This document shows, piece after piece, positions 4,656 through 34,782 of a stretch of 64,000 nucleotides of DNA; the first letter of the stretch is position 1, and each line of letters opens with the position of its first letter. This DNA comes from Prosthecobacter debontii. GTDB taxonomy: Bacteria > Verrucomicrobiota > Verrucomicrobiia > Verrucomicrobiales > Verrucomicrobiaceae. The stretch lies in NCBI RefSeq assembly GCF_900167535.1, contig NZ_FUYE01000003.1, positions 1 to 64,000 on the forward strand, in the 5' to 3' direction. The notes below the pieces were generated by a model, which was not told where the DNA came from, did no database searches, and worked only from the letters and a program-made list of their open reading frames with translations. The position numbers and the translations under genes are program-made.

Positions 4656-5593
4656 ACCACCTTCAGCGCCCAGGCAATGAGTAACGGTGCAGTGACCAAG
4701 CTCACCACCGTGGTGGCGATGACGCACTGCACGGCGGTCGGAGCATGCCCTCCATAATGCCGGGCGATCATGATGGTGAAAACCGCACTCGGCATGGCTC
4801 CCTGGACGATGAGGATGCGCTTCAGTTCCACCTCCAGAGGCAAGTAAAACGCCGCTGCCAAAAAACCGAGAGGAAGGATGAATTGACGTAAAATGGGTGC
4901 CAGAATCGCCACGGACCAGCGCATGCGCTCCTGCCCCCAGATATCGGCAATGGAAGCCCCAATGATCATCACCGCGAGCGGCACCGCACAGGCCCCCATC
5001 ATGCCCAGGGTATTGTGGATCACTTGGGGGATATAGACGTGCAGACCCGTGAAATTCAGCAGCAGCGAGGTCAAAATCGTGATCACCGGCGGATTGATCG
5101 CCAGTTTCCACGGGGCATTGCCCAAACCGGTCAGCAAACCCACCCCAGCTGTCCAGCAGGCCATTTCCACCCCAAGGGTAAAGGTAAACATCACCCCCAA
5201 TGTGCCATTTTCAGGGAAAAGCGCGGTCACGATGGGGATCGCCACAAAGCCATAGTTCTGCATGCCGCAGGTGACCGCAAACGTGCGGCGTCCTTCATGC
5301 TTTTGCAGGCCGATGAGCGGCGCGGCAAAATATGAGATGGCAATCCCCAAAGCCACGAGCGCATAACCCAGACCTGCTGCAATGAGCACCGGCCCAGGTT
5401 TCATCACCGCTTCATTGCCCACCACCCGCTCCAGGATGAGGCAGGGGGTCAAAACCTTGACGGCCAAGCGCATCATCCCAGCATCAGCCTCCGCCGGTAG
5501 GATGCCTAACTTCCGCACCGCCGCTCCCGTCGCCATCGTGAGATAGACGGGCAGGACGACCGTGAGGATGCTGGCAAAGTCGAGCTGGAGCAT
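4646..5593 (-). CDS. AEC-family transporter (auxin efflux carrier-like permease)
   Basis: This protein of about 315 residues starts at MLQLDFASILTVVLPVYLTM. That ATG lies only 4 bases after the metG stop, so it is preferred over the frame's earlier start inside metG. It consists almost entirely of hydrophobic helices (about ten) with the AEC-type signature TCGMQNYGFVAIPIVTALFP near residue 110 and a second conserved half ending CVIATTVVSLVTAPLLIAW. AEC permeases export or import small organic acids and related anions; the substrate cannot be read from sequence. The tight spacing implies co-transcription with metG. Confidence 0.85.
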   Translation of the reverse strand: MLQLDFASILTVVLPVYLTMATGAAVRKLGILPAEADAGMMRLAVKVLTPCLILERVVGNEAVMKPGPVLIAAGLGYALVALGIAISYFAAPLIGLQKHEGRRTFAVTCGMQNYGFVAIPIVTALFPENGTLGVMFTFTLGVEMACWTAGVGLLTGLGNAPWKLAINPPVITILTSLLLNFTGLHVYIPQVIHNTLGMMGACAVPLAVMIIGASIADIWGQERMRWSVAILAPILRQFILPLGFLAAAFYLPLEVELKRILIVQGAMPSAVFTIMIARHYGGHAPTAVQCVIATTVVSLVTAPLLIAWALKVVGV

Positions 5594-5597
5594 GGAA

Positions 5598-7169
5598 TTA
5601 CTCCGCAGTGGCGATCTCCAAACGTGGGAATAGCGGCACCGGCGCACCCAGTTGATGACCGTCCTTCAGCATGCCCCACTTCAGATCACTCAGTTGGAAA
5701 GCTTCGGGCATCTCCCAGCCGATTTGGGCACGGGCGGTGGCCATGGCGGTCGGCATGATCGGATTCAGCAGCACGCTGATGTGCACCCAGGACTCGGCCA
5801 GATGATAGAGCACGCTGTCCAGGCGGGCCGCCTGCTCAGGGTCTTTCGCCAGAGAGAAAGGCTTCGTGCTATCCACATAGGCATTGGCGGCCGTAACGAT
5901 CTTCCACGCGGCAGCGATGCCATCGTGGATGCCCCAGCCTTCCATGCTTTCCAGGTAGGCAGGCAGAGCCTCCGCCACCGTCTGTCGCAGAGCTGCATTC
6001 TCCGCATCGTCGTAGCTACCAGGGGTCAGCACGCCACTGCGATATTTCTGCGCCATGTTGATGCTGCGGTTGAGCAGGTTGCCCAGGCCACCGGCGAGCT
6101 CTTTGTTATACGACATGATGATGCGCTCATCACTGAAGTCGCTGTCGTAGCCCGTGGCGATATCGCGCATCAGGTAATAGCGCAGCCCATCGGGCGTGAA
6201 GGTGCCGGCGAGCACATTGGGATCAATGACATTGCCCAAGCTCTTGCTCATCTTCGCTCCTTTAACGTTCCACCAGCCGTGGACGATCAGGCGAGGGATC
6301 TGGTCATCGCTGAATCCAAGCGCATGCAGCATGATCGGCCAGTAAACGGCATGAGCAGGCACCAGGATGTCCTTGCCAATGACGTGAGCCTCAGATGGCC
6401 AGAGCTTGCTGAAATCAGGCAGGTCCGTGTTGCCGCATTCATCGGCAAGATAACCGGCGAAGCTGATGTAGTTGGTTAGGGCGTCGAACCAGACATAGTT
6501 CACAAATCGTTCATCGAAGGGCAACGGAATGCCCCAGCTCAGGCGCTCAATCGGACGGCTGATGCACAGGTCTTGTGGAGTGCCTTCCAGCGCATTCAGC
6601 ACCGCGCTTGCACGGTGAGTCGGGAAGATGAAATCGGGGTGGGTCTTGATGTAATTCTTCAGCCACTCCACGTGATCACTCAGGCGAAAATACCAATTCT
6701 CCTCCTGGAGTTCGACCACCTCACCCCACTCCTCACCGAAACTGCCATCAGCACCGCGTTCCTTGTCGGTGAGGAACTGTTCCTGACGCACGCTGTAGAA
6801 GCCCGTGTAAGCTTGTTTGTAGAGCTGCCCGCAATCGTGCAGCTTTTGCAGCATCGCCTGCACCACTTTCTTGTGCGTGGGATCTGTCGTGGCAGCCCAG
6901 CCGTCATAACGAACATTGAGTTTATCCCAAAGCGCTAGGAAATGCTCGGTGACACCATCCACGAAAGCCTGAGGCGTAAGCCCAGCTTTATCGGCGCTCT
7001 TCTGCACCTTCTGCCCATGCTGGTCCACACCCGTCAGGAAATACACCTCTCGGCCGTTCAGCCGCTGAAAGCGAGCCATCACGTCCGCCAACACTTTTTC
7101 ATAGGCGTGGCCGATGTGCGGCGGCGCATTCGTGTAGTCGATGGCGGTGGTGATGTAGTAGGGCTTCAC
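5598..7169 (-). CDS. metG: Methionyl-tRNA synthetase
   Basis: This 523-residue class I aminoacyl-tRNA synthetase charges tRNA-Met and initiator tRNA. The HIGH motif is PPHIGHAY (residues 16-23) and the KMSKS loop is GAKMSKSLGN near residue 300. The insert region (YTGFYSVRQEQFLTDKE) lacks the zinc-binding cysteine pairs of long MetRS forms. The protein ends after the anticodon-binding helical domain with no C-terminal tRNA-binding (EMAP-like) module, so it is a short-form MetRS. The start MKPYYITTAIDYTNAPPHIG fits the family exactly. The AEC transporter follows almost without gap. Confidence 0.97.
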   Translation of the reverse strand: MKPYYITTAIDYTNAPPHIGHAYEKVLADVMARFQRLNGREVYFLTGVDQHGQKVQKSADKAGLTPQAFVDGVTEHFLALWDKLNVRYDGWAATTDPTHKKVVQAMLQKLHDCGQLYKQAYTGFYSVRQEQFLTDKERGADGSFGEEWGEVVELQEENWYFRLSDHVEWLKNYIKTHPDFIFPTHRASAVLNALEGTPQDLCISRPIERLSWGIPLPFDERFVNYVWFDALTNYISFAGYLADECGNTDLPDFSKLWPSEAHVIGKDILVPAHAVYWPIMLHALGFSDDQIPRLIVHGWWNVKGAKMSKSLGNVIDPNVLAGTFTPDGLRYYLMRDIATGYDSDFSDERIIMSYNKELAGGLGNLLNRSINMAQKYRSGVLTPGSYDDAENAALRQTVAEALPAYLESMEGWGIHDGIAAAWKIVTAANAYVDSTKPFSLAKDPEQAARLDSVLYHLAESWVHISVLLNPIMPTAMATARAQIGWEMPEAFQLSDLKWGMLKDGHQLGAPVPLFPRLEIATAE

Positions 7170-7334
7170 AATGGGAAAAAGGAGGATGACAGTGTTACGC
7201 CTGCTGTGGCTTCAGGGCAAGCGGTTGCACAAAGATGAGCGGTCAAGAACAGCCAGTTCCCCCAGGGAAAACGTAAACCTTCTTGCACTCCGCCGTGTTG
7301 CCCCTACCATCGCTGCCCCCCTTTTACTTCTGCA

Positions 7335-10064
7335 ATGGAACAACCTCTTCCTGGACAACGCTGGGTCAGCGATAGCGAGCCTGAACTTGGGCTCGGTGTG
7401 GTCATGAAAGCTGAATTCGCCCGCGTGGAAATCTTTTTCCCAGCCGCCGGTGAACACCGCCAGTTCGCCATGAAAACTGCCCCCCTACGACGTGTGCGTT
7501 TTCAAGCCGGTGATACCGTCAAGACCCACGATGGCAAATCCCTGGAAGTGGAGACGGTGGAAGAGCGCAAAGGCATGCTTTTTTACCTGGGCGCGAGCCG
7601 TGAAGTCAGTGAGGCCGAGCTCTCCGATACCATCAGCTTCAGCAAACCTGAGGACCGCCTCATGGCTGGGCAGATTGATGATCTGCGCACCTTTGACCTA
7701 CGGGTCGAGGCGATGAAACGCCGCGCCGATATGCGTCAATCCACCGTGCGTGGTTTCTGCGGAGGCCGTGTGGATCTGCTACCGCACCAGATGTACATCG
7801 CCAACGAAGTGGCGGGCCGCATGGTGCCGCGCGTGTTGCTGGCGGATGAAGTGGGTCTGGGAAAAACCATCGAGGCCAGCTTGATCCTGCATCGCCTGCA
7901 TCTCACAGGGCGTGCGGAGCGTGTGCTCATCCTCGTGCCAGAGCCGCTGGTGAATCAGTGGTTCGTCGAGCTCTATCGCCGCTTCCATCTCACCTTCTCG
8001 ATCTATGACGAGAACCGCTGCGATGTCCTCGAAACCGAGGAAGAAGGCATCAACCCCTTCCTGGAAAGTCAGCTCATCCTTTGCAGCACCAGTTTCCTGG
8101 CTGGTTCTCCAAACCGTGCGGAGCAAGCCGAAGCCGCAGGCTGGGATCTGCTCATTGTGGATGAAGCTCACCACCTGGAATGGAGCCCCGAAGCGCCGAG
8201 CGACTCCTACGCTCTGGTGGATCGGCTCGCGTCTAAGATTCCTGGTTTGCTCCTGCTGACCGCCACACCTCAGCAGCTTGGGCCAGAAGGTCACTTCGCT
8301 CGTTTGCGTTTGCTGGACTCCAATCGCTATGCGGATCTGAGCCAGTTCCTCGCCGAGTCCGAGCACTACGAAGAGGTCGCCAAGGCCATGGATCGTCTTG
8401 CTTCGGGCAAGAACCTCACGGCCGCGGATGAAAAGCTCTTCATCAAAAAATCTCCGCACCTGAAGGAACAGCTCGCCGCTATGAAATCGGGTGAGGATGG
8501 GGCGCGCGAAAAACTGATCTCCTCGCTTCTCGATGAATTCGGCACCGGCCGTGTGATGTTCCGCAACACCCGTGCTGCGCTGAGTGGCTTCCCTGAACGT
8601 CAGGCCAACCTCGTGCCCATCAAAGCCAAAGAGGAGCCTCTGGAAGCCAAGGTCAAATGGCTGGCCGGATTGCTCAAGGAGTTAGGCGAAGAAAAAGTCC
8701 TGCTCATCTGCCGCACCCGTAAGCTGGCCGAACAGATCAATGAGAAACTGCTTCATGAGGTCAACGTTCACTCCGCCCTCTTCCACGAAGGGCTGACATT
8801 GATGCAGCGGGATCGCCAAGCCGCCTTCTTTGCCGAAGAAGATGGTGCTCGCATCCTCCTGTGCTCCGAAATCGGTAGCGAAGGACGTAACTTCCAGTTC
8901 GCGCATCACCTTGTGTTGTTTGATCTGCCGGAAGATCCCGAGTTACTAGAGCAGCGCATCGGTCGTCTGGACCGTATCGGTCAGACTTCCACGATTCACA
9001 TCCATGTGCCTTACATCCAAGCCGGCGCTGAAGAAGTGCTGGCACGCTGGTATCACGAAGGTTTGAATGCCTTTGAGAAAAACCTGCATGGAGCCACCGA
9101 GATCGTCGAATCTCTCCGTGATGAATTGGCCCCGCTCATGAAGGACATGAAGGCCACCAACCTGAAGGCTTTCATCAAGAAGTCTCAGGAGCAACGCAAA
9201 CTGGTGACCAAGAAGTTGGAGCGCGGGCATGACCGCCTTTTGGAACTGAACTCCTGCAAGCCTGAACAAGCCGAAGAAGTCATCCAAGCCGTGCGCGCCC
9301 AGGATGCGGACATCGACTTCGAAGAGTTCTTCATCCGCCTCGTCGATCACTTCGGCCTGCATGTGGAGGAGCATGGCAATCGCAGCTATGTGCTGATGCC
9401 CGCCCACCTCACCACCGATAAGTTCCCTGCCCTGCCTGATGAAGGCCTACTGGCTAGCTTCGACCGCACACGTGCACTCTCTCGCGAGAACATGGCTTTC
9501 CTCACCCAGGATCACCCCATCGTGCGCGGGGCACTGGATCTTTTGTTAGGCAGTGAAAACGGCAACAGCAGCTTCGGCCTTTGGCGCAATACTGGCAGCG
9601 AAGGTCTGATGTTGGAGACCCACTTCGTGGTCGAATGCATCGCCCCCGCCTCCCTGCATGTGGATCGCTTCCTGTCCTCCACACCGATCCGCATCGTTGT
9701 GGATCATAGCAGCAAGGATAGGCGAGATGACGCCGCCTTCATACAGGCCAAGATCGAAAAAGGCAGCCCCACACGCCTGCTCGAAAACGCCGGTATCAAG
9801 CGCAAGATCTTCCCCGCCATGATGAGCAAATCCAAAAAGCTCGCTGAAGCGGAAATGGACAAGCTGATCGCCGAAGCCACGGAAAAGATGAAGGCTCAAC
9901 TCCAGGCCGAGAAAAATCGCCTGGAAGACCTGCGCCAAATCAACGACCACGTGCGCCCCGAGGAAATCACCGCCCTCGAAACCCAGATGACCGCCCTCGA
10001 AGAAGCCATCGGCTCCGCACGGGCACGCTTGGATGCCTTGAGACTGGTGCTACAGAGCACGTGA
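7335..10064 (+). CDS. RapA-like SNF2/SWI2 helicase
   Basis: This 909-residue Swi2/Snf2 ATPase resembles RapA (HepA), which recycles RNA polymerase. The N-terminal 130 residues form a beta-rich region like RapA's Tudor-like domains (MEQPLPGQRWVSDSEPELGL). The helicase core has Walker A LLADEVGLGKTIEAS near 170-182, VDEAHHLEWS near 275, LLTATPQQLGPEGH near 311, and motif VI EQRIGRLDRIGQ near 540. The C-terminus is charged and probably coiled-coil (EKMKAQLQAEKNRLEDLRQI). It is divergent from metG. Assignment to RapA rather than another SNF2 clade rests on the LLPHQMYIANEVAGR-type entry and overall layout. Confidence 0.85.
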   Translation: MEQPLPGQRWVSDSEPELGLGVVMKAEFARVEIFFPAAGEHRQFAMKTAPLRRVRFQAGDTVKTHDGKSLEVETVEERKGMLFYLGASREVSEAELSDTISFSKPEDRLMAGQIDDLRTFDLRVEAMKRRADMRQSTVRGFCGGRVDLLPHQMYIANEVAGRMVPRVLLADEVGLGKTIEASLILHRLHLTGRAERVLILVPEPLVNQWFVELYRRFHLTFSIYDENRCDVLETEEEGINPFLESQLILCSTSFLAGSPNRAEQAEAAGWDLLIVDEAHHLEWSPEAPSDSYALVDRLASKIPGLLLLTATPQQLGPEGHFARLRLLDSNRYADLSQFLAESEHYEEVAKAMDRLASGKNLTAADEKLFIKKSPHLKEQLAAMKSGEDGAREKLISSLLDEFGTGRVMFRNTRAALSGFPERQANLVPIKAKEEPLEAKVKWLAGLLKELGEEKVLLICRTRKLAEQINEKLLHEVNVHSALFHEGLTLMQRDRQAAFFAEEDGARILLCSEIGSEGRNFQFAHHLVLFDLPEDPELLEQRIGRLDRIGQTSTIHIHVPYIQAGAEEVLARWYHEGLNAFEKNLHGATEIVESLRDELAPLMKDMKATNLKAFIKKSQEQRKLVTKKLERGHDRLLELNSCKPEQAEEVIQAVRAQDADIDFEEFFIRLVDHFGLHVEEHGNRSYVLMPAHLTTDKFPALPDEGLLASFDRTRALSRENMAFLTQDHPIVRGALDLLLGSENGNSSFGLWRNTGSEGLMLETHFVVECIAPASLHVDRFLSSTPIRIVVDHSSKDRRDDAAFIQAKIEKGSPTRLLENAGIKRKIFPAMMSKSKKLAEAEMDKLIAEATEKMKAQLQAEKNRLEDLRQINDHVRPEEITALETQMTALEEAIGSARARLDALRLVLQST

Positions 10065-23550: not shown

Positions 23551-26055
23551 ATGTCTGACGCCAGCACCACCCCCATGATGAAGCAGTACCTCGCCATCCG
23601 GCGGGAGCTGCCGGAGGATGTGCTGCTGTTCTTCCGGCTGGGGGATTTCTACGAGCTGTTTTTTGAAGATGCCAAGGTCGCCTCTCCCCTGCTGAATGTG
23701 GCCCTGACCAAGCGCAATGGCGTGCCCATGTGCGGGGTTCCCCACCACTCTTCGCAGGGTTACATTGCCAAGTTGATCAAGGCGGGCAAACGCGTCGCCA
23801 TCGCTGAGCAGACCACCGATCCCGTCCCCGGTAAGATCGTCGAGCGCGCCGTCTCCCAGATCCTCAGTGCGGGCACGATCAATGACCTGAACCTCTTGGA
23901 GTCTAACCGAGCCAACTACCTCGCCGCCGTTTTTCAGACCGGTAAAAAGCTGGGCCTCGCTTATGTGGACCTTACCACGGGGGAGTTTGAAGTCGCTGAG
24001 TTCAAGGAACCTGCCGAACTAGCCGATGAACTGGAGCGCATCCAGGCCAGTGAGCTTCTGTACAATGAGGAACAGCAGGAGTTGATCTCTGCACTGGGGC
24101 GTCCGTCCTACGCGCTTGCCGTTGAGGGCTATCTATTCCTTCAGGATCAGGCCGACCACGCCCTGACCCAGCATTTCAAAGTGAAGTCCCTGGATGGTTT
24201 TGGCTGCCAGGGTCTGAGCGCTGCCATCTGTGCCGCCGGGGCCATTCTGCAATACCTGCAGTTCCAACTCCGCCGAAATGTGGATCATATTCAGCGGCTG
24301 CGGGTGGCCCAAACCAGCGACTTCGTCTTGATCGATGCTGCCAGCCAGAGCCATCTGGAGTTGGTCAATGCCCGGGGTGGTAACCAGCACACGCTGCTTA
24401 GCGCGCTGGACCGCACCTGCACTCCGATGGGCGGTCGCAAACTCCGCCATTGGGTGCTGCACCCCCTGCGGGATCTTGAGCAACTCACCCAGCGCCAGGA
24501 CATGATCGGCGGTCTCATGGCAGAACCCATCGTTCTGGGGCAAATCCGCACTCTGCTCAAAGAAGTGCGCGATCTCGAACGCACCAGCAGCCGCCTCAGC
24601 CAAGGCAGTGGTAATGGTCGCGATCTCCTGGCCATGGCCACGTCGCTGGAGGTCGTCCCTTCCCTCAAAGCCACCCTGGAGACCTTTGACACCGCCGGTT
24701 TCCATCAGGTTCAGGCCCACCTTCACGATCTCTCCGCCCTCGCTACGGAACTCCAGAGCGCCATTGTCGATGAACCGCCCATGCAGATCAAAGAGGGCGG
24801 CGTTTTCCGGCCCGGTTATCTGCCCGAACTCGATGAACTGCGCGATGCCTCCAGCCTGGGTCGCCAGTGGATCGCCGACCTGCAAAACCGCGAGATCGAA
24901 CGCACCGGCATCAAGAGCCTGAAGATCAAGTATAACGCCGTGTTCGGTTACTTCATCGAAGTAACCAAGGCCAACGTCGGTGCCGTGCCTGCCGACTACC
25001 ATCGCAAGCAAACCACCGTCAATGGCGAGCGCTACATCACCGACGAACTCAAGCGCATGGAGGACAAGATCCTCGGTGCTGAGGAACGTAGCAAAGCCCT
25101 CGAATACGAAGAGTTCGTGAGTCTGCGTAACAAGGTCCTGGCCCATCTGACCGAGATCCAGGAAACCGCCTCCGCCCTTGCCGTGCTGGATGCCCTGGCC
25201 TCCCTGGCGGAAACCGCGCGCCTGTTCAATTACACCCGCCCTGTTCTTAACGATACGCGCAATCTCTTCATTCGCGATGGTCGCCATCCCGTGCTGGATC
25301 AGAACCTCACCAGCGGAGAACGTTTCGTGCCCAATGACGTCACCCTGGAGCCTGAGGAGAGCCGCCTCATCCTCATCACCGGGCCGAACATGGCCGGTAA
25401 GAGCACCTACCTGCGCCAGACGGCCCTGCTCACCCTCATGGCCCAGATCGGCAGTTACCTGCCCGCTGCCAGTGCGGAAATCGGTCTTGTAGACCGTATT
25501 TTCACCCGCATCGGCGCCAGTGACGACATTGCTCGTGGTCAGTCCACCTTCATGGTGGAGATGAATGAAACCGCCCTCATTCTGAACAACGCCACCGAGC
25601 GTTCCCTCGTCATCCTGGATGAGATCGGCCGCGGCACCTCCACCTTCGATGGCCTCAGCATCGCCTGGAGTGTGGCCGAGCACCTGCACGACCACGTCGG
25701 CGCCCGCACCCTCTTCGCCACCCATTATCACGAGATCACCGCCCTGGCGCAGAGCCGCCCCGCCGTGCAGAACTACAACGTCGCGGTGAAGGAGTGGAAC
25801 CAGCAGATCATCTTCCTGCGCAAGATCCTGCCCGGCTGTGCCGAGAAGAGCTACGGCATCCAGGTCGCCCGCCTCGCCGGCCTGCCCGAAAACGTCATCC
25901 ACCGCGCTAAAGAAGTCCTGGCCCAGCTCGAATCCGGCCACCAACCCGCCGACAGTGTCACCGACATCCCCTCCGCCACCAGCGTCCCCGCCAAAGCTCG
26001 CAAACCGCGCAGCCCCAGCGACAGCGAGGCAGGCCAGATGACTCTTTTCGGTTAG
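23551..26055 (+). CDS. mutS: DNA mismatch repair protein MutS
   Basis: This 834-residue mismatch-recognition ATPase is full-length. The N-terminal mismatch-binding motif is LGDFYELFFEDA near residue 31 (Phe and Glu of F-x-E present). The connector, lever and clamp domains fill the middle. The ATPase core has Walker A ITGPNMAGKSTYLRQ near 610, MNETALILNNATERSLVILD with Walker B DEIGRGTSTFDG near 690, and FATHYHEIT near 725. The C-terminal helix-turn-helix dimerisation region [15 protein letters not shown] lies near 770. No mutL is adjacent. A second copy of the last 107 codons lies 345 bases downstream. Confidence 0.97.
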   Translation: MSDASTTPMMKQYLAIRRELPEDVLLFFRLGDFYELFFEDAKVASPLLNVALTKRNGVPMCGVPHHSSQGYIAKLIKAGKRVAIAEQTTDPVPGKIVERAVSQILSAGTINDLNLLESNRANYLAAVFQTGKKLGLAYVDLTTGEFEVAEFKEPAELADELERIQASELLYNEEQQELISALGRPSYALAVEGYLFLQDQADHALTQHFKVKSLDGFGCQGLSAAICAAGAILQYLQFQLRRNVDHIQRLRVAQTSDFVLIDAASQSHLELVNARGGNQHTLLSALDRTCTPMGGRKLRHWVLHPLRDLEQLTQRQDMIGGLMAEPIVLGQIRTLLKEVRDLERTSSRLSQGSGNGRDLLAMATSLEVVPSLKATLETFDTAGFHQVQAHLHDLSALATELQSAIVDEPPMQIKEGGVFRPGYLPELDELRDASSLGRQWIADLQNREIERTGIKSLKIKYNAVFGYFIEVTKANVGAVPADYHRKQTTVNGERYITDELKRMEDKILGAEERSKALEYEEFVSLRNKVLAHLTEIQETASALAVLDALASLAETARLFNYTRPVLNDTRNLFIRDGRHPVLDQNLTSGERFVPNDVTLEPEESRLILITGPNMAGKSTYLRQTALLTLMAQIGSYLPAASAEIGLVDRIFTRIGASDDIARGQSTFMVEMNETALILNNATERSLVILDEIGRGTSTFDGLSIAWSVAEHLHDHVGARTLFATHYHEITALAQSRPAVQNYNVAVKEWNQQIIFLRKILPGCAEKSYGIQVARLAGLPENVIHRAKEVLAQLESGHQPADSVTDIPSATSVPAKARKPRSPSDSEAGQMTLFG

Positions 26056-26399
26056 GCCGCCTAGCCGCATGTTCGCACCTCGATTGTTGTGTTTTGTCGA
26101 GTTTTGTTCCGTTTTTAAATCTTTAGCCTCTTTACAGCCCTTTTTCGCCTGTGGTTCCTTGAGGATGAAAGGCTTGATCGGAAAACGGAATGGCTCATCC
26201 GCGAGACAAAAGGCATCAATGCCACCTCCCCCGGAGCCGCATGAAACTTCACGCATGGCCTCCACCCAGGCCTGACACGTCTGACGATAGCGAAGAGAAC
26301 GGTTCATCCAAGTGAACCGGGTGGATTAAAAGAGAAAAGGCAAATGATTTGAAGCCACTCAAACAGCAACTCTCGCGGAGCACCGAGAAAGAGCGCCAG
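26056..26399. other. Spacer between mutS and its 3' duplicate
   Basis: This 344-base stretch has no convincing gene. Its first part is AT-rich. The hairpin GGTTCA-TCCAAG-TGAACC at 26301-26318 could terminate mutS but has no T tract. The reverse strand is open through it (MNRSLRYRQTCQAWVEAMRE...) but continues only into a mutS shadow. From 26349 an ATG-led frame of 17 codons ([17 protein letters not shown]) joins directly to the mutS-like fragment. Confidence 0.45.
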
Positions 26400-26720
26400 G
26401 AGATCACCGTGCTCGCCCAAAGCCGCCCCACCGTGAAGAACTACAACGTCGCCGTAAAGGAATGGAACCAGCAGATCATCTTCCTCCGCAAGATCCTCCC
26501 CGGCTGCGCCGAAAAAAGCTACGGCATCCAGGTCGCCCGACTCGCCGGCCTACCGGAGAACGTCATCGCCCGCGCCAGAGAAGTCCTCCGACAACTCGAA
26601 GCCGGTCACCAACCCGCCGAGAGCGTCAAAGAGGTCCCCGTGGCGACCAGTGTGCCTGCAAAGACAAGGAAGAAAGCCATCAGCGACGAGGATGCAGGGC
26701 ATGTGAGTTTGTTTGGTTAG
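26400..26720 (+). pseudogene. mutS 3'-end fragment (second copy)
   Basis: Codons for [20 protein letters not shown] to the stop repeat the last 107 residues of the intact MutS (EITALAQSRPAVQNYNVAVK to LFG). A 43-residue block from [10 protein letters not shown] to LPENVI is identical in protein. The corresponding 129 bases differ at 12 third-codon positions, all synonymous by my count. No ATPase Walker motif is present, so it cannot act as MutS, although an ATG-led 123-codon frame (26349-26720) could express a MutS C-terminal dimerisation peptide. Synonymous divergence suggests this allele evolved as a functional gene in another lineage or paralogue before being truncated here. Confidence 0.85.
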
Positions 26721-27817: not shown

Positions 27818-30166
27818 TCAATTAAGCGTATTTAGCAGCTTGTTTTTCAAGGTAATAAACAGCTTATTGATTTGACCAACGAAACTATTATTTTGGCCAA
27901 AGAAAATGACATCATTTTTAAATTCTTGCCGAATATTGTAAGCAGTTTCTGACACCCCTGAAAGGTGATGCTCTTCAAGAAGCATTTTTCGAAACTCTTC
28001 AATAATCTGATCGGCATATTTCGAAGATCGAATAGCTCCCCGCGTTAAGTTGGATTTTTGAACAGTCCTGAGCATCACTCTGCCCTTATTGAGAAACCGT
28101 TCTAACAAAATGCCAATGTCGTTCCGAAGATCGCTTTCAGAATATTGTCGCTTTCCAGCATTAACCCTAACCTGATCAATCCACATTTGAGCGAAGGGAT
28201 CAAATGATGTGCTATCTAAGAAAATAGACTCCCCTAAACCATTACATCGGATAGGAGCAATCCCCCCCCGGAAGGAACATTCAGCGAATTCGGTCTTGGC
28301 ATCAAATTCACAGTTAATAAATGTAGCATGGTCAAACTTACATTTTATGAAAGATACGTTTTCAAAGTTAAATGAGCTAATAGTCCCACTAAACTCAAAA
28401 TCTTTAATTGGAGATCCACACAACTCCACCAAACATTCCGTTCTTTCCAAGTGGCTCTTTCCTTTGGGCGTAATTTTTTCTACTGCGGCGAACGCTAGAG
28501 AAGCGGCAAATCTACCTGAGCAATGAATCTTTAAAGCATCGATCAACGTTTTGATTGAATCAGTCGGTGAGGCGATTGTTTCCAATGTTAGTATTTCAAC
28601 CACAGTTTGAATAAGATCTTGCTGCTCTCCTGGTGTCAAAACCCAACGAGCGACTCGACTGGTTTGTTGTTCGTTGGCTAAAAAATGGGCCAGTAAGTAT
28701 GTGCGAACTTGTTCTTCCCGGAAATACCACTTACGCGATGAACCGTCCATTTGTAGAATCGGGTGAGATGTCATGCTCTGAACCGCTTTTTGCCGCGAAC
28801 CTCTATCAAGCACAGGCTGAACTACCTCCATACACAATTCTAAAAGCTCGGAGTCGGGGGACGCACCAGAAGCAATTTCTTCTGCAAACATCCGAAGGAT
28901 TGAAAATTGCTGTTCGGAGTTAAATGGCAGCTCCTGCCTATGACGATCTCGCTGACAAAGCTCACGGATTAACCAGTCAATAGCATTGGAGGATGCTAAG
29001 ATGGTCGCAAAAGATTTGCCGTCTGAGCTACCAACAACATCAGCAATAAGATTAAGAATAAAACCCCTTCCAACCAAATCTCTTGCACTAGCCGCAAGAT
29101 TTCTAAACAACTTATCAGCAGATGAGACTAAACGATCATTACTGCCAAATCTTTTAAGGAAATAATTGTTAGCATGTGTCTCTTCAAACGGAACCATTTC
29201 ATAAAATAAGCAACTAGTTGATTCACGCATCCTCTGATCAATTTGAGAATCTATACTGGCATGCCAATAAGAAGTTCTCGATGTTATAATTATTCTAGCC
29301 CCAGTTTCTTCTGCCAAGTTTCGAATAGCATCAATCACATCTTCTTCTTGGGCTACATCACGATTACTGAGTAAGTATTCATCAAAACCGTCGAATATTA
29401 TTTTAAAAAGATCAAGTTTCAAAGCTATTGCTATAAACTCATCTTCATGACTAGTTAACCAAGGAACCGGACATCCATAATGATGCAGGCAGTTAAGAAT
29501 GGTTTTGGACAAAGAACGCTGATCAGCGACAGGCATATTCTTCCATTGCGAAGAGTCGATAAGTATTGGTATCACGTCTGAACCGCGTTCTAGGATTGTA
29601 GACGCTAGGTGTTTACACATGTAAGTTTTGCCTTGCCCTGCTTCAGCGAGGACTACAGCTACTGTCCCATCACTATATCCTGCACCCAAGTGAGGATCTA
29701 AAAGGAAATTTAGAAGTGGATTGGGTGTTTTTTTATTGAATCCACTTGGAGTTTTAATATTTGGGTCAATATAATGGCTCGGCTTTTCTTCCTTAAGATG
29801 TTCCGTATAACCACTTAATTCATCGTGAATAAAGGAAGCTAAATATGCCTTGGTATCGAGAACCTTTAACCCTTCCTTGCTAGCACGCTTCAACTCAACA
29901 AGCTTTAATGATGCAGCATGAACCAATTCTGGATTTTGAACTCTTTTAGCGCAACTAATGGCCTCGGCAAGATCTGCATTTGAAGCACTTGATTTAAGGT
30001 AAATAACATTAAACGGGTAATCAACTCCACGTAAAGTATTTTTACCAGCATACCTAGCCCAATTAAAACCTGATTCTTTGGGGTCTAAATCAATATTTGT
30101 CGAACGGCTGTAATTGAGTAGCTTAGCAACGTCCGTAAATTCCAAAATTTGGTTGGCTTGGATCAT
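27818..30166 (-). CDS. NACHT-type STAND NTPase with pentapeptide-like repeats
   Basis: This 782-residue protein has the layout of a NACHT immune-type NTPase. The P-loop is VVLAEAGQGKTYMCKHLAST near residue 170-188. The NACHT Walker B with trailing acids is FKIIFDGFDEYLL near 252-264, and the sensor arginine strand is ARIIITSRTSYWH near 290. A winged-helix/helical region follows. Residues 585-640 contain pentapeptide-like repeats (FEFSGTISSFNFENVSFIKC, FDHATFINCEFDAKTEFAEC), and the tail is helical and basic. Residues 1-130 are an unassigned domain. The gene is clearly more AT-rich than neighbouring genes, suggesting horizontal acquisition. No effector or partner gene is adjacent. An antiviral role is inference from the family. 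Confidence 0.8.
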   Translation of the reverse strand: MIQANQILEFTDVAKLLNYSRSTNIDLDPKESGFNWARYAGKNTLRGVDYPFNVIYLKSSASNADLAEAISCAKRVQNPELVHAASLKLVELKRASKEGLKVLDTKAYLASFIHDELSGYTEHLKEEKPSHYIDPNIKTPSGFNKKTPNPLLNFLLDPHLGAGYSDGTVAVVLAEAGQGKTYMCKHLASTILERGSDVIPILIDSSQWKNMPVADQRSLSKTILNCLHHYGCPVPWLTSHEDEFIAIALKLDLFKIIFDGFDEYLLSNRDVAQEEDVIDAIRNLAEETGARIIITSRTSYWHASIDSQIDQRMRESTSCLFYEMVPFEETHANNYFLKRFGSNDRLVSSADKLFRNLAASARDLVGRGFILNLIADVVGSSDGKSFATILASSNAIDWLIRELCQRDRHRQELPFNSEQQFSILRMFAEEIASGASPDSELLELCMEVVQPVLDRGSRQKAVQSMTSHPILQMDGSSRKWYFREEQVRTYLLAHFLANEQQTSRVARWVLTPGEQQDLIQTVVEILTLETIASPTDSIKTLIDALKIHCSGRFAASLAFAAVEKITPKGKSHLERTECLVELCGSPIKDFEFSGTISSFNFENVSFIKCKFDHATFINCEFDAKTEFAECSFRGGIAPIRCNGLGESIFLDSTSFDPFAQMWIDQVRVNAGKRQYSESDLRNDIGILLERFLNKGRVMLRTVQKSNLTRGAIRSSKYADQIIEEFRKMLLEEHHLSGVSETAYNIRQEFKNDVIFFGQNNSFVGQINKLFITLKNKLLNTLN

Positions 30167-30310: not shown

Positions 30311-33300
30311 TCACTGACACGCCTCACACGTGCCACCATTCCGCATGGCTTCGATGGAGCAGGCCATGGCTTCTTCGGCGGTGTATTCGCGTTTGGCTCC
30401 GGTGTCCTGACCGACGACGCCGCGGAGTTCCTTCTTCACTTCGACATCGGCTTTCTCGATGTTGGAGGCGGAGCGGGTGCGGAGGTAGTAGGTAGTCTTG
30501 AGGCCTTTTTTCCAGGCACCTCGATACATGTGGGAGAGAGTGCGCATGTCACTTTCTCCACAGAAGAGGTTCACGGACTGGGACTGATCGATCCACTTCT
30601 GACGGCGGGCGGCGGCGTCGATGAGCCAGGCCCAGTCGATGCCGAAGGCGGTGGCGTAGCGGCGCTTGAGGTCCTGAGGGATTTCCTCAATGCCTTCGAT
30701 CTCGCCATCCATGTATTTGAGCTTGTTCTGGATGTCGGCGGTCCACAGGCCGCGCTTCTTGAGGTCGCGGATGAGGTAGGGGTTCAGCACCATGAAGTCG
30801 CCGGAGAGGTTGGACTTCACGAGCATGTTGCTCATGAGCGGCTCGATGCACGGGCTGCTGCCCATGATGTTGGAGATGGTGGCCGTTGGGGCGATGGCGA
30901 GGACATTGCTGTTACGCATGCCGTTCTTGGCGATCTTGGCCCGGAGGGCGCTCCAGTCCATCTTACCACCACGGGGCACCTCGACCTCGACACCGCGCTC
31001 TTTTTCCAGGAGGTCCACGGTATCCTGCGGGAGGAGGCCGCGATCCCACTTGCTGCCTTTGTAGGAGGAGTAGGTGCCTTTTTCGGCGGCGAGGTCGCTG
31101 GAGGCCTCATAGGCGTAGTAGGCGACGGCTTCCATGAATTCGTCGTTGAACTCGACGGCTTCCTTGGAGGCGAAGGCGACGCCTTTGCGGTAGAGGGCGT
31201 ATTGGAGTCCCATGACGCCGAGGCCGATGGGGCGATGGCGCTCGTTGGAGGTGCGGGCGGCGGGGGTGGGGTAGAAGTTGATGTCGATGACGTTATCGAG
31301 CATGCGCACGGCGGTGCGGATGGTCTCACGCAGCTTGGTGTGATCGATATTGCCAGCGTCGTCGAGGTGGTTGTCGATGAGGACGGAGCCGAGGTTACAG
31401 ACGGCGGTTTCATCCGCGCTGGTGTTCAGCGTGATCTCGGTGCAGAGGTTGCTGCTGTGGATGACGCCGGTGTGGTCCTGCGGGCTGCGTAGGTTGCAGG
31501 GGTCCTTGAAGGTGATCCAGGGGTGACCGGTCTCAAAGATGGACTTGAGCATCTTTTTCCACAGGTCGAGGGCCTCGATCTCGCGGCCGAAGATTTTCCC
31601 GGCTTTGGCCAGGGCTTCGTATTCGACGTAGCGTTTTTCAAAGGCGCTGCCGTAGAGTTCGTGGAGATCGGCGACTTCATTGGCCCGGAAGAGGGTCCAC
31701 ATGCCACGGGACTCCATGCGCTTCATGAAGAGGTCGGGCACCCAGTTGGCGGTGTTCAGGTCGTGCGTGCGGCGGCGTTCGTCACCGGTGTTCACGCGGA
31801 GCTGGAGGAAGTCCTCGATGTCGTTGTGCCACACTTCCAGGTAGGCGCAGCCGGAGCCGCGACGCTTACCGCCCTGGTTCACGGCGATGAGCTGGTCGTT
31901 ATGCAGCTTCAGGAAAGGAATGACGCCCTGGCTTTCACCATTGGTGCCTTTGATGTAACCGCCGGTGCCACGCACACTGGTCCAGGAACCGCCGAGACCG
32001 CCAGCCCACTTGGAGAGGAAGGCGTTTTCCGCGATACCACGGATCATGATGGACTCGATGCTGTCATCCACCTTGTAGAGGTAGCAAGAGCTGAGCTGGC
32101 TGTGCAGGGTGCCGCTATTGAAGAGAGTGGGTGTGCTGGAGCAGAAGCGGCGGCCTTTGTAGAGGCGGTAGAGCGCGATGATTTTATCCTCGGGATTTTC
32201 CTCCTCGATGCACAGGCCCATGGCCACACGCATCCAGAAGAGTTGAGGCGACTCCAAACGCTTGTTAGGCTTCACCTTCTTATCGACGATGAGATAGCGA
32301 TCGTAGAGGGTCTGGATGCCGAGGAAGTCGAAGTCCATGTCGGCCGCGGGATCGAGGGCATCGGCCAACTTATCCAGATCATACTCGAGCAGACGAGGGC
32401 TGATGCGATCGATCTCCACGCCACGAGCGAGGTTGCGACGGAAAGCGCGGCGATGGAAGTCGCGCAGGGCTTCGATGCCGTCTTTGACGATGTCCCAGCC
32501 GAGCACTTCCTCATAGATGTAGCTGAGGCGGATGCGGGCGGCGAACTTGGCAAAGTCGGCATCCTTTTGCATCAGCGTCTTGGCATTCAGAATGACGGTC
32601 TGCTTCAGGTGATCCAGCGTGATGTCGGAGTTCAGGGAGCGACGCAGTTCCATCTCGATCTCACTGCGGGTGAGGCAGAGATCCAGGCCGAGCATGGCGA
32701 AGTCGATGCGCTTTTTGAGGTCCTGTCCATCCCAGAAGAAGGTCTCGGTGGGGCTGGCCTTCACCACGATGAGGGCCTGCTGATCCTGGTCCTGCTCAGC
32801 AGCCACGGCGGCGACTTCCTCGTCGTGCTCACGCATCTTGGAGCGGAGGGCACGGTATTGGATGTAAGCGCGGGCCACTTTGTAGAAGCCCTGTTTCATC
32901 AGCTCTTCTTCGACGATGTTCTGCACGTCCTCGATGTGCATGAACTGCTTGTTTTCATCTGCCACGGCCTGGCTGACGGCCTCCGCTACCTGCACGGCAG
33001 GAGTGGAGTCCAGCTCCATGGAGAGGAAGGCCTTGCGGACAGCGATCTCGATCTTGTTATGATTCCAGGGGACGAGCTGACCGCTGCGGCGGATGACTTT
33101 GGTATTCACAATCAGGGGCTGTGGGTGGCTGTCACCAAAAGCATCGTTTTCGACACGCTTGCGCCGCTCTGCCAAGCTACGGGCGATGTCGTGGGCATTG
33201 TGGCGGACGAGCGCACGCTCGATGCAGTGATAGATGTCCTTGCTATTGAGCAAGCCAGCGCCTTCCACGAGCTCTGAGGAGCGCTGCTGAAGTTCAGTCG

Positions 33301-33586
33301 TCACCGCCTGGGCGATGGTCTGCACCAGACGCTGATTTTTCTCGTTGTAGATGTCGCCTTCTTTTTGGCGTGCCATGAACAGGTCCGCCAGGGCACTGCC
33401 GACGGTATCGGCGATCTCGCCCATGTCGAAGTCGCGTTCGCCACCGCCGACTTTCACTTTAATGGAAGAAGCCGTATCGCCACCTCCGACAGCCAGAGCG
33501 CTCCATTCAAAATGAGGCTTTTGGTCTTTAGGGGTATGGGCGACTCTTTTGAGTTCCTTGTCTTCGTGAAGCAGGTCCTTGAACAT
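30311..33586 (-). CDS. nrdA: Class I ribonucleotide reductase, large (alpha) subunit
   Basis: This 1091-residue catalytic subunit reduces ribonucleoside diphosphates to deoxy forms. The N-terminus has a canonical ATP-cone (VIRRSGQLVPWNHNKIEIAV near 160-180), preceded by a second, degenerate cone-like region (residues 40-145). Active-site features include the cysteine in QLSSCYLYKVDD, NLCTEITLN with CNLGSV, and APTATISNIMGSSPCIEPL. The C-terminal redox pair is GGTCEACQ (Cys1087/Cys1090). Duplicated ATP-cones are also known in chlamydial NrdA. The partner nrdB lies 113 bases upstream, and a terminator follows. Confidence 0.97.
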   Translation of the reverse strand: MFKDLLHEDKELKRVAHTPKDQKPHFEWSALAVGGGDTASSIKVKVGGGERDFDMGEIADTVGSALADLFMARQKEGDIYNEKNQRLVQTIAQAVTTELQQRSSELVEGAGLLNSKDIYHCIERALVRHNAHDIARSLAERRKRVENDAFGDSHPQPLIVNTKVIRRSGQLVPWNHNKIEIAVRKAFLSMELDSTPAVQVAEAVSQAVADENKQFMHIEDVQNIVEEELMKQGFYKVARAYIQYRALRSKMREHDEEVAAVAAEQDQDQQALIVVKASPTETFFWDGQDLKKRIDFAMLGLDLCLTRSEIEMELRRSLNSDITLDHLKQTVILNAKTLMQKDADFAKFAARIRLSYIYEEVLGWDIVKDGIEALRDFHRRAFRRNLARGVEIDRISPRLLEYDLDKLADALDPAADMDFDFLGIQTLYDRYLIVDKKVKPNKRLESPQLFWMRVAMGLCIEEENPEDKIIALYRLYKGRRFCSSTPTLFNSGTLHSQLSSCYLYKVDDSIESIMIRGIAENAFLSKWAGGLGGSWTSVRGTGGYIKGTNGESQGVIPFLKLHNDQLIAVNQGGKRRGSGCAYLEVWHNDIEDFLQLRVNTGDERRRTHDLNTANWVPDLFMKRMESRGMWTLFRANEVADLHELYGSAFEKRYVEYEALAKAGKIFGREIEALDLWKKMLKSIFETGHPWITFKDPCNLRSPQDHTGVIHSSNLCTEITLNTSADETAVCNLGSVLIDNHLDDAGNIDHTKLRETIRTAVRMLDNVIDINFYPTPAARTSNERHRPIGLGVMGLQYALYRKGVAFASKEAVEFNDEFMEAVAYYAYEASSDLAAEKGTYSSYKGSKWDRGLLPQDTVDLLEKERGVEVEVPRGGKMDWSALRAKIAKNGMRNSNVLAIAPTATISNIMGSSPCIEPLMSNMLVKSNLSGDFMVLNPYLIRDLKKRGLWTADIQNKLKYMDGEIEGIEEIPQDLKRRYATAFGIDWAWLIDAAARRQKWIDQSQSVNLFCGESDMRTLSHMYRGAWKKGLKTTYYLRTRSASNIEKADVEVKKELRGVVGQDTGAKREYTAEEAMACSIEAMRNGGTCEACQ

Positions 33587-33699: not shown

Positions 33700-34782
33700 T
33701 TACAGATCGTCGTCGTCGCAGACCGTCAGGGCGGAGGCCTTTTGATAGTCGGTGACTTTTCCTTCAAAGAAGTTTTGCTCTTTGCGCACATCCATCATCT
33801 CCGCCAGCCAAGGCAGTGGGTTGGTGACGCCAGGGTTCAGGGCAGGCAAACCGCAACCGGCGAGACGACGGTCAGCGATGTAGTCGGTGTAGCGCTCGAA
33901 TTCATCCGCGCTTAGGCCCACCGCATTGACGGGCAGGCAGTCACGGATGAATTCTTTTTCCAGAGTTACGGCCTCACGCATGGTATCGACGAGATTTTCG
34001 CGGAATTCGGGAGTCCAGATATCTGGATTTTCCTCGATCAGGTCCATGAACAGATTGCGGAAGACCTCAATGTGATTCGACTCATCCCGCAGGGTATAAC
34101 GGAACATCTGACCGATGCCGGGGAACTTATTCTGGCGATACAGACTGAGGATCATGCCAAACAAACCGTAGAACTGCGTGCCCTCCATGCACTGGCCGAA
34201 GACGAAGATGTTCTTGGCCAGGAGTTGTTTGTTCTCCAGCTTGGTCAGGTCGAGATCGCGGCGCAGGTTGTTCGAATGCTTGGTGACGAATTCGTTTTTC
34301 TTCACGATCGTCGGGATCTGCTCAAACATGGCCTCACACTCATGGGGATTGATGCCCAGGGAGGAGATCATGTACAATAGAGAGTCTGCATGGATGTTCT
34401 CCTCATGGGCATGACGGCCTAACACGAGTTTCAATTCAGGTGCAGTGACGAGCTCACGCACCACGTGCTGGACATTGTCTCCGACGATGCCCTCGGCTGC
34501 GGAGAAGTAACCGATGCCCATCATGATGATCCAGCGCTCGTTTTGAGAAATGTCGTGGGAGCGCCACTGCTCCACGTCTTTTTGCATCTGAATGTCCTCA
34601 GGCTCCCAATGGTTAGCCTTCATGACACGATAGAGATCATAAGCCCATTGATATTTCAGAGGCAAAAGATTGAAGGTCATCGTCTGACGGCCATTGATCA
34701 CCTTTTTTGCGGCAAAGGCCGCTTCGGCTTTGTCTTGGTCGAGAGGGAATTCGCGGTTTCCAATCTTGTAGATCTTATCCAT
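33700..34782 (-). CDS. nrdB: Class Ic-type ribonucleotide reductase, small (beta) subunit
   Basis: This 360-residue ferritin-like subunit generates the oxidant for NrdA. The metal ligands are all present: Glu97 (FSAAEGIV), Glu128 and His131 (EENIHADSLLY), Glu200 (CMEGTQ), Glu234 and His237 (RDESNHIEVF). In the E-x2-H-x3-Y motif of class Ia enzymes the radical tyrosine is replaced by Leu135, and the first ligand is Glu rather than Asp. Both are marks of class Ic (R2c) enzymes such as that of Chlamydia, which use a Mn/Fe cluster instead of a tyrosyl radical. The C-terminus ends in an acidic CDDDDL tail that likely docks to NrdA. Confidence 0.95.
   Translation of the reverse strand: MDKIYKIGNREFPLDQDKAEAAFAAKKVINGRQTMTFNLLPLKYQWAYDLYRVMKANHWEPEDIQMQKDVEQWRSHDISQNERWIIMMGIGYFSAAEGIVGDNVQHVVRELVTAPELKLVLGRHAHEENIHADSLLYMISSLGINPHECEAMFEQIPTIVKKNEFVTKHSNNLRRDLDLTKLENKQLLAKNIFVFGQCMEGTQFYGLFGMILSLYRQNKFPGIGQMFRYTLRDESNHIEVFRNLFMDLIEENPDIWTPEFRENLVDTMREAVTLEKEFIRDCLPVNAVGLSADEFERYTDYIADRRLAGCGLPALNPGVTNPLPWLAEMMDVRKEQNFFEGKVTDYQKASALTVCDDDDL

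Follow-up and report, generated by a model that had tools for sequence, protein, structure and literature searches.

A tyrosine-less, class Ic-like ribonucleotide reductase small subunit with leucine at the radical site in Prosthecobacter debontii

Class Ic enzymes and residues described at the radical site

The Mn/Fe cofactor of class Ic ribonucleotide reductase (RNR) was worked out on the Chlamydia trachomatis (Ct) enzyme. In Ct R2c, manganese at site 1 and iron at site 2 are oxidized by O2 to Mn(IV)/Fe(IV), one electron is delivered via Tyr222 and Trp51, and the Mn(IV)/Fe(III) center replaces the tyrosyl radical (PMC4118035, PMC8463856). Tyr222 is described as an electron relay in cofactor activation (PMC4118035). 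Host nitric oxide or hostile niches have been put forward as the reason why class Ic uses Mn/Fe (PMC4118035, PMC4390871). According to a published pairing rule, the residue at the radical site goes with that at the first metal ligand, being Tyr/Asp in classes Ia and Ib, Phe/Glu in class Ic, and Tyr/Glu in class Id (PMC8463856). Class Ie is described as having lost three ligand Glu residues and as using a DOPA radical derived from Tyr (PMC8463856, PMC9531940), and R2lox as being without the conserved C-terminal Tyr (PMC3824934).

Leucine at the radical site of class Ic is already in print. R2c proteins with leucine, isoleucine, or valine have been documented (PMC3824934, citing Hogbom 2010), Phe or Leu is given as the reference state of subclass Ic (PMC12918982), and Phe or Leu is also reported in class O (PMC9531940). 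With respect to phylogeny, NrdB proteins without the radical Tyr are stated to form a tight cluster (PMC4390871), R2c was polyphyletic in an earlier study as reported in PMC3824934, and PMC9816063, from the literature on RNR and Verrucomicrobia, speaks of chlamydial ancestors. Our literature search, with most subscription journals outside its scope, revealed among the matches listed no paper on a verrucomicrobial NrdB with Leu at this site.

The nrdB gene of P. debontii and its residues

The DNA analyzed was a stretch of 64,000 nucleotides of the P. debontii genome (the window). On its minus strand, nrdB (33700..34782) encodes a class I RNR small subunit of 360 residues counted from the ATG. 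NrdB matched Ribonuc_red_sm (PF00268) with an E of 5.2e-68 and scored 330.9 bits against NCBIfam NF005550, ribonucleotide-diphosphate reductase beta subunit, for which the cut-off is 309. When searched against the PDB with phmmer, NrdB aligned with 1syy, the R2c of C. trachomatis (E = 1e-76), and the Ct residue numbers used here are taken from that alignment. The sequence-only reading had placed a leucine where the radical Tyr would be, in the motif E-N-I-H-A-D-S-L, and a Glu rather than Asp as the first metal ligand. Its numbering agreed exactly with the translation, and the alignment put Phe127 of Ct, not a Tyr, opposite Leu135 (codon 34378..34380) and Glu89 opposite Glu97 (34492..34494), the ligand that is Asp in class Ia/Ib and that was also located in a wide alignment. 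We take the position of Leu135 to be that of Tyr122 in E. coli.

The remaining ligands, which had likewise been called intact, are encoded on the same strand by E128-N-I-H131 (34390..34401), Glu200 (34183..34185), and E234-S-N-H237 (34072..34083). Trp59 (34606..34608) aligned with Ct Trp51, Tyr229 (34096..34098) with Tyr222, and Tyr346 (33745..33747) with Tyr338. Among the 134 sequences with Leu at the radical site in the wide alignment, Trp59 and all six ligands were present in 134/134, and Tyr346 in 133/134, with one gap. We take Tyr346 to be the C-terminal Tyr of radical transfer. The protein ends in the acidic tail DDDDL (residues 356-360, 33703..33717), which is presumed from sequence to be the tail that binds NrdA; an acidic tail is also found in relatives and in the ligand-dead paralogues described below.

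The gene for the large subunit, nrdA (30311..33586), follows nrdB on the same strand after 113 bp. Its product of 1091 residues matched PF02867 (E 5e-191), PF03477 (E 1.6e-24), and PF00317 (E 2.3e-19), and has an ATP cone, a double Tyr (YY at 1033), and a C-terminal CxxC (CEAC from 1087), the latter two of which are presumably the usual radical-transfer and reductant motifs. A search for an NrdR box 5' of nrdB gave a best match at only 12/16 positions, at -119, which was not used as evidence. Adjoining nrdA, on the minus strand, is a gene (27818-30166) whose 782-residue product matched a NACHT NTPase domain (PF05729, E 8.1e-10) and is a candidate STAND/NACHT protein; PADLOC models gave no match to it at E 0.001. 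Farther along, an ORF on the plus strand (26349-26720) repeats the 3' end of mutS (23551-26055), its translation being 80% identical to the MutS C terminus over 106 residues, and appears from its sequence to be a partial mutS duplication just downstream of that gene.

NrdB resembles Ct R2c (1syy, 4d8f, 4m1i) in each of the features of class Ic: a nonoxidizable residue replaces the radical Tyr (L135), Glu replaces Asp as the first ligand (E97), and the other five ligands (E128, H131, E200, E234, H237) and the equivalents of W51, Y222, and Y338 (W59, Y229, Y346) are all present. It is unlike Ct R2c in having Leu for Phe, Tyr92 and Trp84 for Phe and Arg, and a position in a separate clade. The Tyr with Asp ligand of class Ia/Ib is replaced by Leu135/Glu97, only the Glu of the Tyr/Glu pair of class Id is found, and in contrast to class Ie all six ligands are present and the Tyr is absent. 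The presence of Tyr346 and the adjacent nrdA distinguish NrdB from R2lox. The ferritin-like subunits of class O share the possibility of Leu at the radical site; those proteins are, however, of about 240 residues with a C terminus cut short (PMC9531940), whereas NrdB has 360 residues and a longer tail that continues after Tyr346 to DDDDL. NrdB proteins from plasmids of Pseudomonas sp. Leaf58, Acidithiobacillus caldus, and Acaryochloris marina were 37-39% identical over 91-96% of the query, and unlike NrdB carry Tyr and Asp.

We then compared the two diagnostic positions in 264 R2 rows, drawn from the window, 80 close relatives, a scan of the phylum, 12 plasmid or phage genes, 2 PDB sequences, and 80 viral contigs. 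We excluded from this set every match shorter than 270 aa, namely L128 and L129 (both fragments), L119 (the split copy), and L116 (R2-like, with E/F), as well as the copies from the P. debontii genome itself, L001 and L174. The states at positions 97 and 135 were E/L in 134 rows, E/V in 62, D/Y in 37, E/F in 21, E/I in 9, and Q/L in 1. All 37 Tyr rows had Asp at ligand 1 and all 226 Glu rows had Leu, Phe, Val, or Ile at the radical site; the pairing held in 263/264 rows (among them a set with 116/117 and the viral rows with 80/80), and the exception, Q/L, is a ligand-dead paralogue. The count is striking, but it does not stand for many independent events because the R2 rows are related: a 64-row tree had four changes per trait and only one independent pair on well-supported branches. 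Given the published rule, the combination of Leu135 and Glu97 would assign to NrdB the class Ic pairing with Leu replacing Phe, as judged from sequence.

A first AlphaFold model, made with 35 close relatives, had a poor active site and a mean pLDDT of 62.1 and was not used. The second model, made from an alignment of 58 rows in which Tyr-less viral R2s were abundant, had a mean pLDDT of 83.9. Foldseek hits to this model at ranks 1-13 were all Ct NrdB, at 36-37% identity. Among the chains listed by VIA-align, to which the fold comparison is limited, the Ct structures gave Z of 38.8-39.2 (39.2 for 4d8f), the Mn/Fe-loaded 4m1i aligning at 1.8 A over 306 residues, and lower values were obtained with 6y2n (37.8), Aquifex (34.6), E. 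coli Ia (~32), and class Id (~31). As predicted by the model, the closest solved folds to NrdB are those of Ct R2c, several of them Mn/Fe-loaded.

A Leu clade in the Verrucomicrobiota and its paralogues

A scan of genome contigs with NrdB confirmed 579 relatives, of which the best 80 were kept. These were 79-96% identical to NrdB. Most have titles such as Verrucomicrobia, Prosthecobacter, or Opitutia; four titles, as deposited, lack a Verrucomicrobia name (one Armatimonadetes, one UBP7, and two 'bacterium'). The nearest named relatives among these best 80 of 579 were Prosthecobacter and Brevifollis, the NrdB of Brevifollis gellanilyticus NBRC 108608 being 92% identical. The motif ENIHADSL was present in 80/80 of those kept, and a sequencing error or chance as the source of Leu135 was ruled out because all of these close relatives share the Leu.

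A scan of 387 genomes of the phylum found an R2 in 125, of which the R2s of 86 were read, two as fragments only. A Leu-type R2 was present in 52 of the 86, and the remaining genomes read had either Phe/Glu (in the Chlamydia-like motifs EAVHTHTF or EAVHTHAF) or Tyr/Asp. Leu at the radical site is no rarity, being documented for class Ic and found in these 52 genomes. In one genome (L119, G327:C32) the Leu NrdB is split between two frames, which is probably an assembly error. Trp84 is near-invariant in the Leu rows (132/134), and this position is mostly Leu or Arg elsewhere.

The genome of P. debontii, which is 99.62% complete, has one match to PF00268 and one to PF02867, and no further RNR was found in it by PF00268, PF02867, or PF13597 (NRDD). 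A second ATP-cone match in this genome is in a frame of 181 aa (G000:C6), which we take to be probably NrdR. Since nrdA adjoins and searches of the genome detected no other RNR, the Leu subunit presumably supports catalysis, and an inactive R2 appears unlikely because the near-complete genome has these single matches and none to NRDD. Across the 52 Leu-type genomes, PF02867 had one match in 35 and two or three in 17, and six of the 35 had an NRDD match; in the other 29 no further RNR was detected. A further candidate RNR was found in 23 of the 52 (17 by PF02867 and 6 by NRDD), and therefore sole-RNR status is not general. Among the 29 are G327, with its split R2, and G342, with two further Tyr-type R2s, as well as two genomes of 0.9 Mb (G036 and G057), in which an idle RNR would hardly persist.

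In a 57-row tree the Leu rows formed one clade with support of 99/95. When viral rows were included, for 64 rows in all, the support was 99/96, and the viral Val/Ile rows formed another clade at 100/100; in an 87-row quick tree the Leu rows came together only with the ligand-dead paralogue inside (94). Columns 97 and 135 were included in building the R2 trees. The Phe rows were intermixed with Tyr rows, and forcing them into one clade was rejected (p-AU 0.0013), whereas forcing all Tyr-less rows into one clade was not (p-AU 0.106). Several independent origins of the Tyr-less state are not claimed, as the AU test does not reject a single Tyr-less clade. The tree called for by the sequence-only reading, which had likened NrdB to the chlamydial enzyme, gave a distinct Tyr-less clade of Leu proteins and did not nest it in the chlamydial Phe clade; to judge by these trees, NrdB is not a member of the latter. 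What appears to be new here is that the Leu proteins of the Verrucomicrobiota form a well-supported clade outside the chlamydial one.

A viral source was also considered and set aside. A scan of viral contigs with the single NrdB sequence confirmed no relative, and a profile scan confirmed 386, among the best 80 of which there was no Leu type. In these 80 (L187-L266), 71 R2s are Tyr-less with Glu as ligand 1, having Val (62) or Ile (9). By their residues, the only basis of the comparison, they resemble the marine viral 'subclass Ic-like' group (PMC12918982). That group shares with NrdB the loss of the Tyr; it has Ile or Val where NrdB has Leu, and the fetched viral Val/Ile rows fall in their separate clade.

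We surveyed 117 genomes of the family of G375 for paralogues. A second NrdB lies directly upstream of the Leu NrdB in 15 genomes of three genera (12 of g205, 1 of g11, and 2 of g204), as at 6955-8013 on the plus strand of locus L112, with the further upstream copies in L268-L281. In G437 the Leu NrdB partner is split between frames, and in G474 it is truncated where the contig ends. Compared with E-E-H-E-E-H in NrdB, the ligand positions of this paralogue read Q-E-R-E-[VIT]-R (13) or G-Q-Q-E-A-R (2), so that four to five of the six metal ligands are lost. The C-terminal Tyr is missing from 15/15, but the proteins retain an acidic tail with DL at its end (DDDDL in 8/15). All 15 formed one clade in a quick tree (SH-aLRT 100). 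Of the 8 closest pairs (of 105), 4 had a computable dS and gave dN/dS of 0.04-0.075, one dS being 1.5; the 15 look to be under purifying selection. The PF00268 search found no such paralogue in P. debontii. Separately, a tandem NrdB paralogue lies downstream of the Leu NrdB in L113 (G116, ~6555-7427) and L115 (G204, 5396-6643), with its ligands kept and with Tyr229 changed to Asn and Tyr137 to His.

The known analogue of the ligand-dead paralogue is, we assume, yeast Rnr4, and the yeast Y2Y4 heterodimer (PDB 1jk0) was in the Foldseek list of the NrdB model. By this analogy the paralogue is possibly a bacterial Rnr4-like beta' subunit; no bacterial Rnr4-like case was named in the titles or abstract openings among the literature matches listed. 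We regard as rather doubtful the broader proposal that the Leu clade is a cofactor-distinct lineage, whose switch to a metal-centered oxidant was separate from that of Chlamydia, with some members heterodimeric with a metal-dead beta'. If true, Leu NrdB and beta' would correspond in bacteria to the yeast pair.

The likely cofactor of NrdB and its alternatives

The above considerations bear out, at the level of sequence, the sequence-only reading of NrdB as class Ic-like, by virtue of the separation of Tyr/Asp from non-Tyr/Glu pairs, the chlamydial R2c proteins as closest structures, and the finding of a sole RNR. We consider it probable, at about 0.78, that NrdB is the R2 of the only RNR detected in the genome, a Tyr-less, Glu-ligand, class Ic-like protein with a Mn(IV)/Fe(III) oxidant. 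That oxidant is likely by analogy with Ct R2c, and is carried over only by analogy because the Leu clade lies outside the chlamydial one, in which Mn/Fe was demonstrated; the literature search found neither metal analyses nor EPR data on a Leu-clade protein. The residues named in the Ct R2c mechanism all exist in NrdB. Apo-NrdB would take up Mn(II) at site 1, the one adjacent to Leu135, and Fe(II) at site 2, and reaction with O2 would give Mn(IV)/Fe(IV). One-electron reduction through Y229/W59 would then lead to a stable Mn(IV)/Fe(III) center in place of the tyrosyl radical, which would oxidize the active-site Cys of NrdA via W59, Y346, and the NrdA Tyr pair. Leu135 would be only a space filler that is not oxidizable.

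An unlikely alternative is that the Tyr-less protein stores its oxidant on another metal pair, either a dimanganese center like the Mn2(IV,III) of class Id or a high-valent di-iron center. Class Id also couples a Glu ligand with a metal-centered oxidant, yet it keeps a Tyr that is essential in F. johnsoniae (PMC8463856) and that is absent in NrdB. With Leu substituted for Phe there may be space beside site 1, and the Leu clade is separate from the chlamydial one, but the folds nearest to the NrdB model are those of Ct R2c and not of class Id.

It is more improbable still that a tyrosyl radical has been relocated to another Tyr near the cluster. One candidate might be Tyr92, which is nearly specific to the clade, being Tyr in 134/134 Leu rows and in only 9 of 130 other rows, where 119 have Phe. 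However, Tyr92 is five residues before Glu97 on the helix, whose geometry suggests that it should point away from the metals, whereas Tyr137, Tyr205, and Tyr229 are common to the Tyr-less chlamydial enzyme. Further, the Asp that partners the radical Tyr in Ia/Ib is Glu in NrdB. A degenerate or accessory R2, with the true radical subunit elsewhere in the genome, is brought to mind by the ligand-dead paralogues of relatives, but is nearly excluded by the single PF00268 match, the six ligands kept, the adjacent nrdA, and the motif kept in all of the best 80 of 579 relatives.

With the Mn(IV)/Fe(III) center as the preferred reading, NrdB is a naturally occurring case of Leu at the radical site, and B. 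gellanilyticus NBRC 108608 is a named strain that could serve as a protein source. In P. debontii and in 28 of the 51 other Verrucomicrobiota genomes examined, no RNR but the Tyr-less one was found. An explanation from pathogen defense alone would presumably not cover this enzyme.
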